From: Oerskovia enterophila
Lineage (GTDB): Bacteria > Actinomycetota > Actinomycetes > Actinomycetales > Cellulomonadaceae
Assembly: GCF_001692445.1 (NCBI RefSeq)
Contig: NZ_MAQA01000034.1
Location: 1-55,275, forward strand
Direction of reading: 5' to 3'
Length of the DNA stretch: 55,275 nucleotides
Each line of letters begins with the position of its first letter. The stretch's first letter is position 1. Below the pieces are notes generated by a model, which ran no database searches, was not told the DNA's origin, and saw nothing but the letters and a program-made list of their open reading frames with translations. Made by a program: the position numbers and the translations under genes. Shown one piece after another: positions 32,744 to 45,197 of the stretch.

Positions 32744-32896
32744 GGCGGAAGCTCATCAGCCCCGCGACGCACTTTCAAGCTTCAGAAGGGTGAAGTATGG
32801 GCGGAACGTCCAGATCATCGGTGACCACGATGCATGGGCGGTGCGAGTCGGAGGCTGACCCGCGAACGGGAGGCACCGCCGGACCGCACCGGCGCA

Positions 32897-32959
32897 CTAC
32901 GTAGTTCCCACACTCTTCCGGGCAACCCGTTGACCACCCGCCCGCGGCGCGAGCATTCT
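32897..32959 (+). promoter_or_regulatory. Leaderless beta-helix promoter with CTACGTAG site
   Basis: TTGACC (-35, 32930-32935), 18 bases, then CATTCT (-10, 32954-32959), six bases before ATG 32966, fit a leaderless transcript and decide the start. The palindrome CTACGTAG (32897-32904) followed by TTCCCAC lies 25 bases upstream of the -35. The chitinase promoter has the same palindrome 15 bases upstream, one helical turn less. Confidence 0.55.
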
Positions 32960-32965
32960 CCACGC

Positions 32966-34288
32966 ATGACCACACCGACCGCGTGGCAACGGCGCCGCGC
33001 TCCGCTCGCGACTCGCCGCGCTCCACTCACCGCGCTCACCACGCCCACCACCAACACGGCCGCCCACCGCATGCGCCCCCTCGCCGCAGCCGTCACCGCG
33101 GCGGCTCTCGCCCTCCTCGCGGTCGCCACCACCTCACCCGAACCGGCGGCCGCCGCCGAGACCGTCTCCGTCTCGACCGCGGCCCAGCTCAAGTCCGCCC
33201 TCGCGGCGGCCACCCCGGGCCAGACCATCCACCTCGCCGACGGCGTCTACACGGGCAACTTCAAGGTCACGGGGCGCCCGGCCTCGGCATCGGCCCCGAT
33301 CACCCTCGAAGGCTCCCCGAACGCCGTCCTGCGCACCTCGAGCGGCGGCGGCAACGTCCTCCAGCTCACCGACGCCGACCACTGGACGGTCCGCGGCATC
33401 ACGGTCCAGAACGCCCAGAAGGGCATCATGGTCGACTCGTCCGACCACGTCACGATCGACGGCGTCACGGTCCACGACCTCACCATGGAGGGCGTGCACT
33501 TCCGCACGTCGAGCAGCTACGGCGTCCTGAAGAACTCGCGCATCTTCGACACCGGGCAGGACGGGCGCGGCATGGGCGAGGGCGTCTACGTCGGTTCCGC
33601 CAACACCTACAGCGACACGTCCGACCACGTCCAGATCCTCGACAACACCATCGGCCCGCTGGTCCGCGGCGAGAACGTCGACATCAAGGAGGGCACGCGC
33701 GGCGGCCGCATCGCGGGCAACAGGTTCTACGGCGACGGCCTGACGGGCGCCAACTACGACGACTCGTGGGTCGACATCAAGGGCAACGGCTACGTCGTCG
33801 AGGACAACGTCGGCATCGGGACCACCAGGTCCGGCTTCCAGACGCACCAGCAGTCGCCCGGCTGGGGCTGTGGCACGACGTTCCGGAACAACTCCTCGGA
33901 CCTGAGCGGCGCCGTCGGGCCCGGGCGGTACGCGATCGAGGTGACCGTGTACGACGCGGCGACCTGTCCGGTGACGGTGACGAGCGACAACACGGTCGTC
34001 GGGGGAGACGGCCTGGTCAACCCGGGCATCCCCGTCTCGCCGCTGGGCGGCGGCCCGGGTCCGGAACCGAGCCCGACGCCGGAGCCCACCCCGAGCCCGA
34101 CGCCCTCACCCTCGCCGAGTCCCACCACGCCCGCGTGCACCGCTCCGGCCTGGAGCGCGAGCGCCGTCTACACGGGCGGAGCCACGGTCTCGCACGCCGG
34201 CAGCACCTACACGGCCCGCTGGTGGACCCAGGGCGAGACGCCCGGGACGTCGCAGTGGGGAGCGTGGGCGGTGGTCGGGACCTGCTGA
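32966..34288 (+). CDS. Secreted right-handed beta-helix protein with CBM5/12
   Basis: A 440-residue exported carbohydrate-active protein. A long Arg-rich start leads to a signal peptide ending PEPAAAAETVSV near residue 66. The catalytic-type domain (about 66-355) is a parallel beta-helix of the polysaccharide-lyase/pectinase fold (TPGQTIHLADGVYTGNF, MVDSSDHVTIDGVTVHDLTM, NVDIKEGTRGG). A Pro/Ser/Thr linker of SPTP repeats is followed by a CBM5/12 (WSASAVYTGGATVSHAG, WWTQGETPG) very like that of the chitinase. The exact lyase family is not clear. ATG 33071 would give a normal signal peptide, but the leaderless promoter favours 32966. Confidence 0.83.
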   Translation: MTTPTAWQRRRAPLATRRAPLTALTTPTTNTAAHRMRPLAAAVTAAALALLAVATTSPEPAAAAETVSVSTAAQLKSALAAATPGQTIHLADGVYTGNFKVTGRPASASAPITLEGSPNAVLRTSSGGGNVLQLTDADHWTVRGITVQNAQKGIMVDSSDHVTIDGVTVHDLTMEGVHFRTSSSYGVLKNSRIFDTGQDGRGMGEGVYVGSANTYSDTSDHVQILDNTIGPLVRGENVDIKEGTRGGRIAGNRFYGDGLTGANYDDSWVDIKGNGYVVEDNVGIGTTRSGFQTHQQSPGWGCGTTFRNNSSDLSGAVGPGRYAIEVTVYDAATCPVTVTSDNTVVGGDGLVNPGIPVSPLGGGPGPEPSPTPEPTPSPTPSPSPSPTTPACTAPAWSASAVYTGGATVSHAGSTYTARWWTQGETPGTSQWGAWAVVGTC

Positions 34289-34368: not shown

Positions 34369-34599
34369 ATGGTCTCGATCACGATCCGCGACGTCCCGCA
34401 GGAGGTGCGCGACGAGCTCGCCTCGCGTGCGGCCGCCTCAGGGCGATCGCTGCAGGAGTACCTCGCCCAGGCCCTCGACGACCTGGCAGCCAAGCCGTCG
34501 CTCGAGGGCGTCCTCGTCGACATCCGTCGCAACGCCCGGGGCTTCCCGTCGCTCGAGATGGACTCGTTGACCGCGGACCTCGCCGCCGACCGCCGGTGA
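34369..34599 (+). CDS. Ribbon-helix-helix antitoxin (VapB/FitA type)
   Basis: A 76-residue antitoxin. The first 45 residues have the FitA-like pattern VSITIRDVPQEVRDELASRA and SGRSLQEYLAQALDDLA of a ribbon-helix-helix DNA-binding domain. The rest (IRRNARGFPSLEMDS) is the extended arm that would wrap the toxin. Its stop overlaps the PIN-toxin GTG (GTGA). It should neutralise the toxin and repress the operon through the inverted repeat just upstream. Confidence 0.87.
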   Translation: MVSITIRDVPQEVRDELASRAAASGRSLQEYLAQALDDLAAKPSLEGVLVDIRRNARGFPSLEMDSLTADLAADRR

Positions 34600-35006
34600 G
34601 GCACCACCGTCAGGGCGGTCTCGTCGTCCCGGATGCGTCGGCGGTCGTCGTACTGCTCATCGACCCGTCGACGCGGGGCGATACGGTTGCCCAGCTGCTC
34701 CGTGGCGCCACGTTGTTCGCTCCGTCGCTCCTTCCGTACGAGGTCGCGAACGTGCTGCGCCGTCGTCGCGCAGCAGGACTGCTGTCGGACGGCGAGGCGC
34801 GCATCGCCTTCGACGCTCTGCGTCGCCTGCCCGTCGAGCTCTGGCCCTTCGAGGTGCTGGCCGCCCGAGCCTGGGAGCTCGGCCCCAACCTGAGCACGTA
34901 CGACGCCGCCTACGTCGCGCTCGCGGAACATCTCGACGCCACCCTCGTCACGACGGATGCGCGGCTCGCGCGCGCGCCCGGCCCCCGCTGCGAGCTCGTC
35001 GCGTAG
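34596..35006 (+). CDS. PIN-domain toxin (VapC type)
   Basis: A 136-residue PIN-fold ribonuclease. The acidic Mg-binding residues are visible in VVPDASAVVVLL, LPYEVANVLRRR, STYDAAYVALAE and LVTTDARLARA. VapC toxins cleave tRNA or rRNA when free of antitoxin; the target here cannot be read. It is translated by coupling to the antitoxin gene and ends well before the next gene's ribosome site. Confidence 0.88.
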   Translation: MRHHRQGGLVVPDASAVVVLLIDPSTRGDTVAQLLRGATLFAPSLLPYEVANVLRRRRAAGLLSDGEARIAFDALRRLPVELWPFEVLAARAWELGPNLSTYDAAYVALAEHLDATLVTTDARLARAPGPRCELVA

Positions 35007-37290: not shown

Positions 37291-37581
37291 GTGCGTACTG
37301 CTGCCATCACGGCCAGCGTCCTGGTGTCCGTCGGACTGCTCGCGGGGTGCAAGGGAGGCACGGGCTCGGGTCCCGCGTCACCCTCGCCGACCGCGACCGA
37401 CCCGTCGCCGACCGACCCGTCCACCGAGCCCACGAGCCCGCCGCCGGTCGACCCGACCGACGGGCCGTCGCCCGAACCGACCGACACGGCCACGACGGCA
37501 CCGTCCGAGTCTCCGGACCCCGGTGACGTCTCGATCGAGGTGTACATCCCGGAGCGCACGGCCCCGCCGTCGAGCGACTGA
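37291..37581 (+). CDS. Small Pro/Thr-rich lipoprotein
   Basis: A 96-residue exported protein. The signal peptide ends with the lipobox LLAGC and is followed by KGGTG. The mature chain is a low-complexity Pro/Ser/Thr/Asp stretch of DPSPTDPS-like units, ending in VSIEVYIPERTAPP. GGGGAG lies before GTG 37291. It looks like a surface spacer or glycosylated tether with no catalytic domain. It is divergent from the exonuclease gene. Confidence 0.65.
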   Translation: MRTAAITASVLVSVGLLAGCKGGTGSGPASPSPTATDPSPTDPSTEPTSPPPVDPTDGPSPEPTDTATTAPSESPDPGDVSIEVYIPERTAPPSSD

Positions 37582-37708
37582 GCCCCGGAGCAGCACGACG
37601 CACGACGGGCCGGACCTCGTCTCCGAGGCCCGGCCCGTCGCTCCGTCGAGCACGCCCCCCACGGGCGCGCTCCGCGCTCCTACCCCTGTGCCGGGGGCAG
37701 GAGCGGCG

Positions 37709-38590
37709 CTACTCCACGCCGCCCTCCGCCTGGCGGGCGCGGTGGCGGCGGGCCGCGACGACGAGCCCGACGCCGACCAGCAGCGCGAGGAACGCCGCGC
37801 CGGCCGCGAGGCCGACGGTCGCACCGGTCGAGGCGAGCGAGCCCGAGCCCGTGCCTCCGGTCGACCAGGGGTCCGACCCGCCGTCGGAGTCGACGAGCGT
37901 CGCGTCGTCGGTGGGCTCACCGGTGCCCGGCCCGTCGGTTCCAGGACCGCCCGTCCCCGGCTCGTCCGTGGGAGGGTCGGTCGGCTCGACGGCCACGGCC
38001 GTCACGGTGATCGGCGCCGTCCCGAGGTCCGTGACCTCGGTCGCCTGGGTCGCGGCGTCGACGAGCGTGGCCCGCTCTGCGGTCACGGCACCGTCCCCCG
38101 CGCCCACGGCCACGAAGTCGAGGGTCGCGAGCGTCAGGTCTCCCTCGGCGGCCGGCGAGGTGCCGAGCTTGGTCTGCATGAGCACGACCGAGGACCCGTC
38201 GGGACCGAGCGCCGCCTCGTGGAACCCGGAGATGTCGGTGGTCCCGCTGCCGTCGACGTACTCGAGCACCTCGGGGTCGAAGCCCACAGTGAGCTCGTAC
38301 GCGAACAGGTCGCTGACCCCGGTGGCGGCCACGGTCACCGAGACGGTGTCACCAACCTCGACCGCGGGGGCCGAGGCCGTGACCGTGTACGAGCCGACGG
38401 TCGTCGCGGCGCTCGCCGCTCCGGCGCCGCCGAGGAGCGTCGCCCCCGCGAGCGTCAGCGTCGCCGCACCGGCGACGACCCGCCGCGCGGCGACCCGCTG
38501 TGCGACGAGCCGCCGTGCCACGACCCGCCGCGCGGCGAGCCGTCCTGCAGCACCCCGCTGCGGTGCCCGTGATCCAACGGCTCGGTCCAT
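37709..38590 (-). CDS. Wall-anchored cohesin-domain protein
   Basis: A 293-residue surface protein. A long Arg-rich signal-peptide n-region built of five-residue repeats ends near AGAASA (residue 61). A single cohesin-like domain (about 65-195) follows: SAPAVEVGDTVSVTV, DLFAYELTVGFDPEVLEYV, GDLTLATLDFVAVGAGDGAV. A Pro/Gly/Thr linker leads to the sorting signal LASTG (252-256), a hydrophobic helix and the tail ARRHRAR. LAxTG is the motif of class E sortases, so the protein should be fixed to peptidoglycan. Cohesins bind dockerins, and the gene just upstream on the same strand encodes a dockerin-bearing amidase, a natural partner. GAGAGG precedes ATG 38590. Confidence 0.8.
   Translation of the reverse strand: MDRAVGSRAPQRGAAGRLAARRVVARRLVAQRVAARRVVAGAATLTLAGATLLGGAGAASAATTVGSYTVTASAPAVEVGDTVSVTVAATGVSDLFAYELTVGFDPEVLEYVDGSGTTDISGFHEAALGPDGSSVVLMQTKLGTSPAAEGDLTLATLDFVAVGAGDGAVTAERATLVDAATQATEVTDLGTAPITVTAVAVEPTDPPTDEPGTGGPGTDGPGTGEPTDDATLVDSDGGSDPWSTGGTGSGSLASTGATVGLAAGAAFLALLVGVGLVVAARRHRARQAEGGVE
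38473..38547 (-). repeat. 15-bp tandem repeat in cohesin signal-peptide region
   Basis: Five imperfect 15-base units (38473-38487, -38502, -38517, -38532, -38547), with forms such as CGACGACCCGCCGCG, encode the repeated pentapeptides RRVVA, RRLVA and QRVAA. Unit number could vary by slippage, altering charge and length of the signal-peptide n-region. Confidence 0.7.
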
Positions 38591-38638
38591 GGTGGTCGTC
38601 CTCTCGAACAGTGAAGCAGGTGTCGTGATCCGCACGGC

Positions 38639-40447
38639 TCAGCCCTCCAGCTCGGGGAACAGCGCGGGTGCGTGGCGGTTGAGCGAGCCCTGCTCGTACC
38701 CGTAGGCCAGGCCGAGCAGCGTCCCCTCGTCGTAAGCACGGCCGATGAACTCGAGGCCGATCGGTGCGCCGTCGCTCGTCGAGCCGTCGAGAGCGGCCGA
38801 CGCGAAGCCCATGGGCACGGTCACGGCGGGCAGGGCCGAGAACGGGCTGAGGCGGTTGTTGGAGCCGCTCGAGTAGCCGGTCGGCCCCGAGGTCGACGGG
38901 TAGATGATCGCGTCGACGTCGTGCGCGTCCATGGTTCCCTCGATGGCCCGGCGGCCGAACGCGATCTCGCCGTCGTGCTGGGTCCTCCAGGCGTCGTACG
39001 TCTCCTGGGTCACGAGCGAGCGGGTGCGCAGCGTGCCCGCCAGCGCGGGGAGGTAGTCGCCGCCCGACGCCACGATGTCCTGGAGCGACCGGTACGGCAC
39101 GGCCGGGGCGGCGAACTTCGTCAGGTACGCGTTGAGGTCGTGGCCGAACTCGTTGGTGCTGCCCGAGGACCACGTCTGGATCGTCGCCATGTCCGTGATG
39201 GCCAGCGGCACGACCTCGGCCCCGTGGGCCTCGAGGTCGGCGACGGCGTCGGCGAACAGGCGCTGGGCGGTCGCGTTGGTGCCGATCGTCGTCGGGTCGT
39301 AGCCGATGCGGGCGCCGTCGAGGCTGTCGGCGTCGAGGAACGAGGTGTAGGAGGCGGGCCGACGGGAGTCGGTCAGCGCGGTCGCGGCGTCCTCGGGGTC
39401 GGAGCCCGCGACGGCGTCGAGCGCGATGGCCGCGTCGGTCACGGTGCGGGTCATGGGGCCGCCCGTGTCCTGGGACAGCGCGAGCGGGACGATCCCGTCA
39501 CGGCTCGTGAGCCCCACGGTCGAGCGCACGCCCACGAGCGCGTTCCACGACGACGGGATGCGGATCGAGCCGCCCGTGTCGGTGCCGAGCCCGATCACCG
39601 CGAAGTTGGCGGCGATCGACGCCCCGGACCCGCCGCTCGACCCGCCCGACGTCTTGCCGGGCGCGTACGGGTTGGTCGTGGTGCCGCCCAGCGAGCTGTC
39701 GGTCGTGGTGTTGACCGCGAACTCGTAGAGGTTGGCCTTGGCGAGGATCACGGCACCGTCGGCCCGCAGGTTCTCGATCATCTGGGCGTCCGACGACGTC
39801 TGGTTGGCCTGGAGGCACGTGCACCCGGCCGTGGTCGGCATGTCGACGGTGTTGTAGTTGTCCTTCGCGATCACGGGGATGCCGTGCAGCATGCTGCGCG
39901 GGCCGCCCGCGGCGCGTTCCTTGTCGAGCTCGGCCGCGATCTCGAGCGCGTGCGGGTTGACCGTGATGATCGAGTTGATCTGGTCGTCGTACGCCTCGAT
40001 CCGGTCGAGGTACATCTGCGTGAGCTCGACCGCGGTCAGCTCGCCCGAGGCCATGGCCTTCTGGATGTCCACCGTGCTCGCCTCGAGCAGCGTGAAGGCG
40101 CCGTCGTCGTAGAGCATGCGCTGGGACAGGGCCGCGACGTCGGTCACGTCGATCGTGCCGCTGCCGTCGAGGTCGGCGGCCGCGACGTCGGACCAGCCGG
40201 CGTCGGTGCTCGTGGTCCCGACCGCAGCGACGAGCAGCGACAGGTCGTCGGTGTCGACCGCGCCGTCGCCCGTCAGGTCGGCCTCGGTGTAGAAGGGCGC
40301 GCCGAACGCGAGCCCCGGTGAGGTCGGGTCAGAGGGAGCGCCGACGGCGGTGGTCGCGGTCAGTCCCACGGTGATCGGTGCGACGAGCGCGACCAGGGCG
40401 ACGGGAGCGGCGGCGAGGAGGCGCCGTCGTCGTGCGTGCGTGTTCAC
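38639..40447 (-). CDS. Secreted amidase with N-terminal dockerin
   Basis: A 602-residue exported enzyme. The signal peptide (HARRRRLLAAAPVALVALVA, cleavage near 37) is followed by a type-I-like dockerin at 57-107. It has two calcium loops: D57, T59, D61, D65, D68 and D92, D94, S96, D100, D103. An amidase-signature domain comes next, with the Lys in PVIAKDNYNT and Ser residues in GGSSGGSG and GTDTGGSIRIPS forming the Ser-cisSer-Lys triad. Such enzymes hydrolyse amides; the extracellular target is unknown. GTG 40447 has GAAGGGA upstream. A dockerin near the N-terminus, on an amidase and beside a cohesin gene, is unusual and suggests display on the cell wall. Confidence 0.87.
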   Translation of the reverse strand: MNTHARRRRLLAAAPVALVALVAPITVGLTATTAVGAPSDPTSPGLAFGAPFYTEADLTGDGAVDTDDLSLLVAAVGTTSTDAGWSDVAAADLDGSGTIDVTDVAALSQRMLYDDGAFTLLEASTVDIQKAMASGELTAVELTQMYLDRIEAYDDQINSIITVNPHALEIAAELDKERAAGGPRSMLHGIPVIAKDNYNTVDMPTTAGCTCLQANQTSSDAQMIENLRADGAVILAKANLYEFAVNTTTDSSLGGTTTNPYAPGKTSGGSSGGSGASIAANFAVIGLGTDTGGSIRIPSSWNALVGVRSTVGLTSRDGIVPLALSQDTGGPMTRTVTDAAIALDAVAGSDPEDAATALTDSRRPASYTSFLDADSLDGARIGYDPTTIGTNATAQRLFADAVADLEAHGAEVVPLAITDMATIQTWSSGSTNEFGHDLNAYLTKFAAPAVPYRSLQDIVASGGDYLPALAGTLRTRSLVTQETYDAWRTQHDGEIAFGRRAIEGTMDAHDVDAIIYPSTSGPTGYSSGSNNRLSPFSALPAVTVPMGFASAALDGSTSDGAPIGLEFIGRAYDEGTLLGLAYGYEQGSLNRHAPALFPELEG

Positions 40448-40645
40448 GGAGTTGTCCCTTCCGAGTGCGCCGAGGGCAGGGCGAAGCACGCCGACGGCGG
40501 CGGTTGATCTGGGGAGGGCGCGCACCCCCGTGCGCCCACAGCGAGGCTGCCACCCGCGTGTTTCGGCGTGGTGTCGCGGCAGTTTCGACCGCTGCGCGGT
40601 CACTCAGAACCGTGTCTCGTCTACTGCCCGACCGTGGTCGGCGTC

Positions 40646-41785
40646 CTACGAGTAGAGGCTCGCGCGGAAGCCGGGGTAGGGATCCACGGTCTCGGCAGCG
40701 GACCTGCGGACGGCGACCACGGCGTCGAGTGCAGGCCCGGCGACGTAGTGTCGACCCTTGGTGCTACCGACGGCGCGCAACAGCGCGACGTCGGTCAGCA
40801 GCTTGAGGTCGCGGCTCGCCGTGCGCTCGTCGATCTGGGCTTGACGCACGTACGGCCCTCGCCGGACCCGCATGCCGAGTGCCGCCGAGTAGAGGACGTC
40901 GAGCGATCGATCCGGGAGCCGCTGGCTCGCCCCGAGATCGTCGAGCATGCTCCAGACTCTCGAGGCGCGCGATACGCGGTCGAGGACGGCCTGTGCCTGG
41001 AGATGGTGCGCGCGCAACGAGAACGTCACCCAGGTGGAGGCATCGTGGCCCGGGCTCCAGGTGCCGTCACTGGATCGCGCCAGGACACGGTAGTAGTCCT
41101 CGGTGTTCGCCCCGAGCCATTCCTCGATGCTCGACAGCTCGGGAGTACTCAGGCCTGCTCGGGTCAGTACCAGCGTCTGCAGAGCGCGAGCCATGCGGCC
41201 GTTGCCGTCGCGGAAGGGATGGATCATGACCAGGTTGAGATGCGCCATCGCACCGCTGACGAACGGATCGAGGTCCGGATGGTCGGCGGTCCATCTCATG
41301 AGCTCGTCGACGAGTTCTGCAACGAGGTCGGCGTCAGGCCCGGCGTAGAGGTGACGGCCGGTCGCCTCGTCCGAGACAAAGATCTCCCCGCGGCGGTACT
41401 GACCGGGGCTCTTGTCGAGAGCGTGGGACAAGAGCATGTAGTGCATGGAACGGAGGATCGATGCGTCGAGCGTGAAGTTCTCGTCGCCGGCGGTCGCCAG
41501 GATGAACCCGAGCGCCTGGCGATAGCCCGCGATCTCGCGGAACGTCTGGACGTCAGCGCTGATCGGTTCGTCGCCCTCGATCGCGGCGTCGGCGTCGTCG
41601 AGGGCGACGTTGTACCCCTCGATGCTGTTCGACCCTTGGATCGCCCGCGCGACGGCCGTCTTACGAAGCCTCCCTACCCACCGTCGGGGCGTGCGGATCT
41701 GATCGGCGAGTGCACTACGCATCGTCGAGAGCTCGCCGAGGACGCGCTCGTCGTCGGCAGTCAGCACGGGGAGGGTGTAGAGCAT
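40646..41785 (-). CDS. Fic-domain protein with N-terminal inhibitory motif
   Basis: A 379-residue AMP-transferase-type protein. The Fic core HPFRDGNGRMAR near residue 190 contains catalytic His and the phosphate-binding loop. An N-terminal SNSIEG (52-57) matches the class II inhibitory helix, whose Glu blocks ATP until relieved. The C-terminal 100 residues carry a winged-helix-like part (DVLYSAALGMRVRRGPYVRQ, RTASRDLKLLTDVALL). AAGGA precedes ATG 41785. Composition is less GC-rich than in neighbours, hinting at transfer. It may adenylylate a cellular protein and regulate its own gene. Confidence 0.88.
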   Translation of the reverse strand: MLYTLPVLTADDERVLGELSTMRSALADQIRTPRRWVGRLRKTAVARAIQGSNSIEGYNVALDDADAAIEGDEPISADVQTFREIAGYRQALGFILATAGDENFTLDASILRSMHYMLLSHALDKSPGQYRRGEIFVSDEATGRHLYAGPDADLVAELVDELMRWTADHPDLDPFVSGAMAHLNLVMIHPFRDGNGRMARALQTLVLTRAGLSTPELSSIEEWLGANTEDYYRVLARSSDGTWSPGHDASTWVTFSLRAHHLQAQAVLDRVSRASRVWSMLDDLGASQRLPDRSLDVLYSAALGMRVRRGPYVRQAQIDERTASRDLKLLTDVALLRAVGSTKGRHYVAGPALDAVVAVRRSAAETVDPYPGFRASLYS

Positions 41786-42890: not shown

Positions 42891-42976
42891 GTGCCGAGCA
42901 TGCGGTTGTCGTCCAGGATCGGGCCGGATCGGACGACAACCGCATGCTCGTGGAACGACAACCGCATGCTCGGCAC
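42891..42976. repeat. Three-arm GAGCATGCGGTTGTCGT repeat in divergent promoter region
   Basis: The left arm (42891-42914) is perfectly complementary both to 42931-42950 (20 bases) and to 42955-42976 (22 bases), so two mutually exclusive hairpins or three binding sites are possible. It lies between two gene starts facing away from each other, where a terminator is not expected. Single-mismatch relatives lie at 45091-45170. Confidence 0.75.
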
Positions 42977-43052
42977 CTCCGATAGTCTCCGGAGTCGAGC
43001 GCACCGGGCACACGGCCCGGGAGCGCGGATCGCCGCCGACCCAGGGGAGCCC

Positions 43053-45036: not shown

Positions 45037-45090
45037 CGGAGGCGGCCTCTGGGCTCTGGACCTCGGCGGATCGGGCCTCGCCCCTTTGGT

Positions 45091-45170
45091 GCCGACCATG
45101 CGGTTGTCGTCGGTTTCGTCCGCGTAATGAACGCCCACCGCATGCTCGAGTGGCGCCGACCGCATGCTCG
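45091..45170. repeat. GCATGCGGT repeat cluster between convergent genes
   Basis: One GACCATGCGGTTGTCGTC copy (45091-45111) and two inverted CCGCATGCTCG copies (45136-45148, 45158-45170) repeat the three-arm layout at 42891-42976 with small changes. This copy lies between convergent genes, just before a separate GC-rich hairpin. Confidence 0.65.
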
Positions 45171-45197
45171 TGAGCGCCGCGCGTCCCCGGACAGCAC

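Follow-up and report, generated by a model that had tools for sequence, protein, structure and literature searches.

A predicted cohesin–dockerin tether for a single secreted amidase in Oerskovia enterophila and other Actinomycetota

Two adjacent minus-strand genes of Oerskovia enterophila, located within the window analysed here (the whole stretch of 55,275 nucleotides of contig NZ_MAQA01000034.1), encode an amidase with an N-terminal dockerin and a protein combining a single cohesin domain with a C-terminal sorting tail. Judging from their sequences, the two products likely form a dedicated tether that holds a single amidase, is anchored by sortase and probably depends on calcium. The one-enzyme, one-scaffold display proposed in the preliminary description of this DNA thus finds support in several features: both domains score over their Pfam cut-offs, the genome has one of each, the genes are adjacent in both possible orders among relatives, a sortase of the matching class (E) is encoded in the genome, the same amidase recurs in 71 aligned pairs, and natural fusions of the two proteins exist.

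The locus and its two proteins

The amidase gene (38639..40447, minus strand; 602 amino acids), delimited from its open reading frame, start context and Pfam matches, starts with a GTG at 40447 just preceded by GGAAGGGA and ends with a stop codon at 38639-38641. After 48 bases follows the ATG (38590) of the cohesin gene (37709..38590, minus strand; 293 amino acids), which was delimited on the same grounds, has GAGAGG just before its start codon and stops at 37709. A purine-rich stretch lies ahead of both start codons, and the open reading frame coordinates previously given for both genes are correct. A simple scan of the region 37400-40800 found no promoter- or terminator-like consensus, so it is plausible that both genes share one transcript. 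The amidase stop codon is in frame with the cohesin gene here as well as in genome G003 of the same genus, and in seven Nocardioides relatives the two are fused. As judged by eye, the N-terminus of each protein has the layout of an export signal, with basic residues followed by a hydrophobic segment and a site of the AxA kind.

Several other features of the window may be recorded. A Fic-domain protein (40646-41785, same strand; 56 bits) is encoded directly upstream of the amidase gene, a protein at 32834-34288 shows matches of the beta-helix type and bears a CBM5/12 domain at its C-terminus, and a stand-alone PIN-domain protein (55.5 bits) lies at 34596-35006. A palindromic repeat around GAGCATGCGGTTGTCGTC occurs at 42891-42993 and 45089-45191; allowing up to two mismatches, it has 16 matches genome-wide, four of them in the window, versus none for the reversed control.

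The amidase-signature catalytic domain (PF01425; 38714..40027, minus strand) scores 329.9 bits against a cut-off of 27. N-terminal to it lies a two-loop type I dockerin (PF00404; 40112..40282, minus strand) with 26.5 bits against a cut-off of 22.9, and 29.9 bits in the genome search, while weak EF-hand and other matches in the same protein are all below cut-off. At positions 1, 3, 5, 9 and 12 the first calcium loop (DLTGDGAVDTDD; 40244..40279, minus strand) has D, T, D, D, D and the second (DLDGSGTIDVTD; 40139..40174, minus strand) has D, D, S, D, D, exactly as expected from the earlier claim that this amidase carries a two-loop dockerin with D, T or S at all ten calcium positions. In an alignment of 71 cohesin–amidase pairs, compiled without the frameshifted locus L098 and without L162 and L170, whose amidase is cut by a contig end, loop positions 1, 3, 5 and 12 vary little or not at all, and T predominates at position 9; several relatives' dockerins score just under the PF00404 cut-off. 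A lysine and the serines of the GGSS and GGS motifs are present in 71/71 rows, and we take these to be the Ser-Ser-Lys catalytic residues. The best matches of the enzyme in the PDB are peptide amidase structures 5ac3 and 1m21 (E 2e-79), with which the Lys and Ser motifs align; the matched chains differ in that they lack a dockerin and correspond to the catalytic portion alone. The protein is accordingly annotated here as a predicted peptide-amidase-like serine hydrolase.

The cohesin domain (38027..38377, minus strand) was called cohesin-like in the preliminary description, which had staked this reading on a match to the cohesin profile. PF00963 indeed matches residues 87-203 of the listed open reading frame with 44.1 bits against a cut-off of 24.1 (45.9 bits in the genome search), and hence both profiles suggested there for checking, PF00963 and PF00404, are matched over cut-off. 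The cohesin is the sole Pfam family in this protein, and the same scan found no carbohydrate-binding module on it. In a 69-row alignment of the cohesin subfamily (L098 dropped; cohesin as well as amidase rows over about 90% alike thinned), PF00963 matches 62 rows at E<=0.01 and leaves seven unmatched, and the closest solved cohesin to the subfamily profile in the PDB is that of Clostridium perfringens NagJ (E 7.4e-10), followed by scaffoldins. All 69 of the 69 cohesins share the four fixed residues of LGxSP (L, G, S and P), which here lie in the stretch TKLGTSP (38153..38173, minus strand), and two other glycines are likewise invariant. Given this conservation and what is known of cohesin structures, the LGxSP residues may contribute to the docking face.

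The C-terminus of the cohesin protein (37712..37837, minus strand) consists of LASTG, a hydrophobic stretch and the basic tail RRHRAR, and so has all three elements by which sortase-anchored proteins are recognised: an LAxTG or LPxTG motif, a hydrophobic segment and a basic terminus. Two NCBIfam LAxTG models, by their names dedicated to a small-protein group and to a Microco LAVTG domain, stay under cut-off (20.3 bits versus 65, and 19.3 versus 27). The single sortase match in the genome is of class E (249.5 bits against a cut-off of 160), an enzyme of the LAxTG type; the LAxTG sorting signal noted earlier is upheld. PMC5148588 describes the display of LAXTG proteins by class E sortases in soil and freshwater actinobacteria.

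Across the entire genome no cohesin besides that of the window exceeds the cut-off (a second match, with 15.6 bits, is under it), and the amidase carries the only dockerin match listed at E<=10. Single matches of either kind are not rare by themselves, since among 14 control genomes a cohesin over cut-off occurs in one and a dockerin over cut-off in two, with weaker matches being commoner. What makes the pairing more than chance is that the two domains occur once each in the genome, as neighbours, and repeatedly so across genera; chance adjacency of the two genes is ruled out by this last point.

Distribution and architecture among relatives

Within the genus, both domains are present in two of seven genomes (G000 and G003); a further "cohesin" match in G001 (25.6 bits) is a likely false positive judging from its sequence and fails the threshold of E<=0.001. 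Among 221 genomes of the family, that threshold yields a cohesin in 26 (G001 not among them), all of which belong to the 28 genomes with a dockerin at E<=0.01. The dockerin is over the Pfam cut-off in 24 of the 26, with G131 (21.3 bits) and G132 (20.7 bits) being under it. Both domains are encoded side by side on one contig in 23 of these genomes and are split at contig ends in the other three (G053, G118 and G204). Fisher's test gives p = 8e-32 for the co-occurrence, a value that overstates the evidence because the genomes are related and the counts not independent. A single dockerin match was found in 24 of the 26 cohesin genomes, the exceptions being the metagenome genome G130, where the amidase N-terminus is present twice, and G145, where an S8 protease bears a further dockerin. 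The two dockerin genomes devoid of a cohesin match at E<=0.001 are G169, where the dockerin lies in a 222-amino-acid frame, and G142, where it again belongs to an S8 protease. Both S8 proteases (L085 and L086, in G145 and G142, respectively) carry the dockerin C-terminally, with 31.2 and 24.3 bits, and come from one genus.

In a sample of 396 genomes of the order, where absence means none among the 10 or 12 first-look candidates scored per genome, the cohesin subfamily was found in 19 genomes and matches to a dockerin-linker model in 32. The 19 genomes exceeding 120 bits with the latter are exactly the 19 with a cohesin; the other 13 matches, of 37-45 bits, begin only at column 53 and thus exclude the dockerin. 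The dockerin lies within a short flank of the cohesin at 14 of these 19 loci and was placed by coordinates at the remaining ones (G000, G003, G145, G053 and G401). A sample of 396 genomes from the phylum gave five matches with only one strong (G000), and the module is thus common in some groups and not across the phylum. Conservation of the pair in related genomes, proposed as a check on the original reading, is in any case evident from 26/26 cohesin genomes of the family, the same 19/396 genomes of the order and many genera. In a plasmid search none of 56 records covers 80% of the query; the ten matches listed are all partial (9-24%) at 65-70% identity, and four records beyond these ten have higher identity.

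A scan of a genome collection with a dockerin-plus-linker alignment retrieved 118 relatives, the best 80 of which were examined. By record titles these 80 represent 20 genera of Actinomycetota, with many from Microbacterium, Curtobacterium, Cellulosimicrobium and Nocardioides, others from Oerskovia, Cellulomonas, Leifsonia, Demequina, Isoptericola, Sanguibacter and Aeromicrobium, and one Actinomyces metagenome genome. A profile built from the cohesins of the family (G127 left out of the first training set) revealed a cohesin adjacent to, or fused with, the dockerin-amidase in 73 of the 80 loci; in the remaining seven, a contig end lies 74-458 bases from the dockerin start. The cohesin comes first in 61 of the 73 loci and the amidase in 12. 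The N-terminal position of the dockerin and the amidase cargo, both initially considered unusual, are indeed atypical for cellulosomes, yet they are the rule in this module.

According to a loose self-made pattern, a sorting-type tail occurs in 61 of the 63 Micrococcales loci and in none of the ten from Nocardioidaceae; the 12 loci without it are these ten, the frameshifted L098 and L127 of Isoptericola. The place of the tail is taken, in the three proteins of Nocardioidaceae that were scanned, by a stretch that resembles Big_3_5 and scores under cut-off. At L098, from Demequina sediminis, the cohesin frame ends before the domain is complete and another frame gives a match as well, for which reason the gene looks frameshifted. 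At seven of the ten Nocardioidaceae loci (L097, L100, L105, L108, L118, L123 and L166, all from Nocardioides and amidase-first), dockerin, amidase and cohesin form one open frame with short links between the domains and no signal-like stretch between them. Their cohesins score 88 to 105 bits with the subfamily profile; with Pfam alone, the cohesin is over cut-off in four, and the dockerin is over it in one, under it in five and unmatched in one. Since the Nocardioidaceae loci have no sorting signal and seven of them are fused, the separate sortase-anchored cohesin appears, from these sequences, to be the Micrococcales form of the module. The cell-wall display originally suggested would therefore apply to that form and not extend to the ten Nocardioidaceae loci.

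Two further architectures were encountered. In G401 (L226), a metagenome genome that is 69% complete, a dockerin (21.1 bits, just under cut-off), an amidase (272.6 bits), a cohesin (35.7 bits) and an LAVTG tail are all encoded in one frame of 963 amino acids. A related amidase in G283 (L227 280-3402) has no dockerin and instead an Ig-like domain under cut-off followed by its own LPSTG tail, from which direct anchoring of such an amidase apparently also exists. That two proteins usually encoded by separate adjacent genes also occur fused points to a function that they share, and not specifically to a tether acting in trans. A plug and a socket on the same chain could self-close or join chains head to tail, and because they do share one chain in the seven Nocardioides fusions, any contact there need not be a tether.

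Cohesin and dockerin distances show a partial correlation of 0.16 once the amidase distance is removed, a value not reached in any of 2000 permutations. Column covariation as measured by mutual information is negative: seven cohesin–dockerin column pairs exceed the 99.9% level versus 6.3 expected, and the values do not exceed those for cohesin–amidase columns, with an effective number of sequences of 38. The cohesin tree, in the part listed, is split by gene order with support of 100/99. In the listed parts of the trees, Isoptericola AK164 (L127) combines a cohesin from the amidase-first half with an amidase from the cohesin-first half; as its partners fall into different halves and its cohesin has no sorting tail, a partner exchange seems possible.

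Possible function and alternative explanations

The tether that we favour would work as follows. Both proteins would be exported by means of the signals identified by inspection, and the class E sortase, as the motif and the enzyme suggest, would cut the cohesin protein at LASTG and link it to the wall. Outside the cell, the dockerin of the amidase would load calcium and plug into the single cohesin, as we infer from the domain families and their pairing. The amidase, thus held on the surface, would hydrolyse amides around the cell.

It is scarcely credible that the pair represents a degenerate or minimal cellulosome collecting several plant-polysaccharide enzymes. A cohesin and a dockerin are present, and the relatives include cellulose degraders, but with a single domain of either kind over cut-off the genome has no multi-cohesin scaffoldin and no dockerin-bearing glycoside hydrolase, the sole dockerin sits on an amidase, and the cohesin protein has no carbohydrate-binding module; for this genome the counts of one and one refute a cellulosome. 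Consistently, part of the article PMC3544764 reports no cohesins or dockerins in three Cellulomonas genomes. Very improbable, too, is the notion that the cohesin accepts dockerins from various proteins or from other species and that the amidase is only one client among them: Isoptericola AK164 (G145), with its dockerin-bearing S8 protease, would fit it, whereas the single dockerin match in 24 of the 26 family cohesin genomes does not, and the extra match in G130 is just a second copy of the amidase N-terminus.

More attention is deserved by the idea, in our opinion rather unlikely, that the domains do not bind in trans at all. The dockerin would then be a calcium-stabilised module at the N-terminus of the amidase and the cohesin-like domain a surface module in its own right, the two genes being kept together for the sake of co-expression, and where they are fused the cohesin-like domain would be part of one rigid enzyme. 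The negative column covariation, the matches of the dockerin profile to calmodulins in the PDB and the sharing of one chain in the seven Nocardioides loci and L226 all agree with this. It is, however, difficult to reconcile with the restriction of cohesins and strong dockerin-amidase matches to the same 19/396 genomes, with adjacency in both gene orders, with Pfam scores over cut-off for both domains of the window, and with the fact that NagJ, the closest solved cohesin, binds dockerins (part of PMC12997984).

Beyond the predicted tether itself, one may speculate, with considerable doubt, that Actinobacteria employ the cohesin–dockerin contact as a minimal, calcium-switchable means dedicated to placing one enzyme, and that lineages shift among four forms: a tethered two-gene form with a sortase-anchored socket, a fused and anchored one (L226), one fused without an anchor (the seven Nocardioides loci) and a directly anchored one (L227). 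The plug and socket of the unanchored Nocardioides fusions could then link enzymes head to tail.

Relation to known cohesin–dockerin systems

Cohesin–dockerin pairs are best known from large multi-enzyme machines in anaerobes. Both modules are also known from non-cellulosomal proteins; Peer et al. in 2009 reportedly dealt with these, perhaps including some of the proteins discussed here. In the open-licence PMC literature we found, among the matches listed, no paper on this cohesin/dockerin-amidase pair. A conserved actinobacterial pair of one socket and one plug with a non-carbohydrate cargo would represent the cohesin–dockerin system in its smallest working form and would provide a simple natural model for studying its binding, its evolution and its use in surface display. 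The module is also a clue to the localisation of secreted amidases. A survey that requires multi-cohesin scaffoldins and dockerin-bearing glycoside hydrolases, as set out in PMC11557425, would by its design miss it.

Closest in domain content are C. perfringens NagJ and NanJ, which likewise have single cohesins outside cellulosomes, and binding between cohesin-bearing enzymes and dockerins of that species has been measured (part of PMC12997984). In those enzymes a glycoside hydrolase bears the cohesin and the partners are glycoside hydrolases as well, whereas here the cohesin belongs to a predicted, dedicated wall anchor and its putative partner is an amidase. A cohesin combined with a sortase signal is known from Limousia cSca5, a single cohesin with LPxTG described in a passage of PMC12997984, and from cohesin proteins with LPxTG that form a named class, the "nonSLH-anchoring" scaffoldins, in a section of PMC11557425. 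Such proteins act in multi-enzyme complexes alongside other scaffoldins; in the present genome, in contrast, the amidase is the sole dockerin protein over cut-off and the sorting signal is LAxTG of the class E type. The present case is set apart by the dedicated one-to-one pairing, by an amidase cargo whose dockerin is N-terminal, by a sorting signal of the class E type and by its hosts among the actinobacteria.
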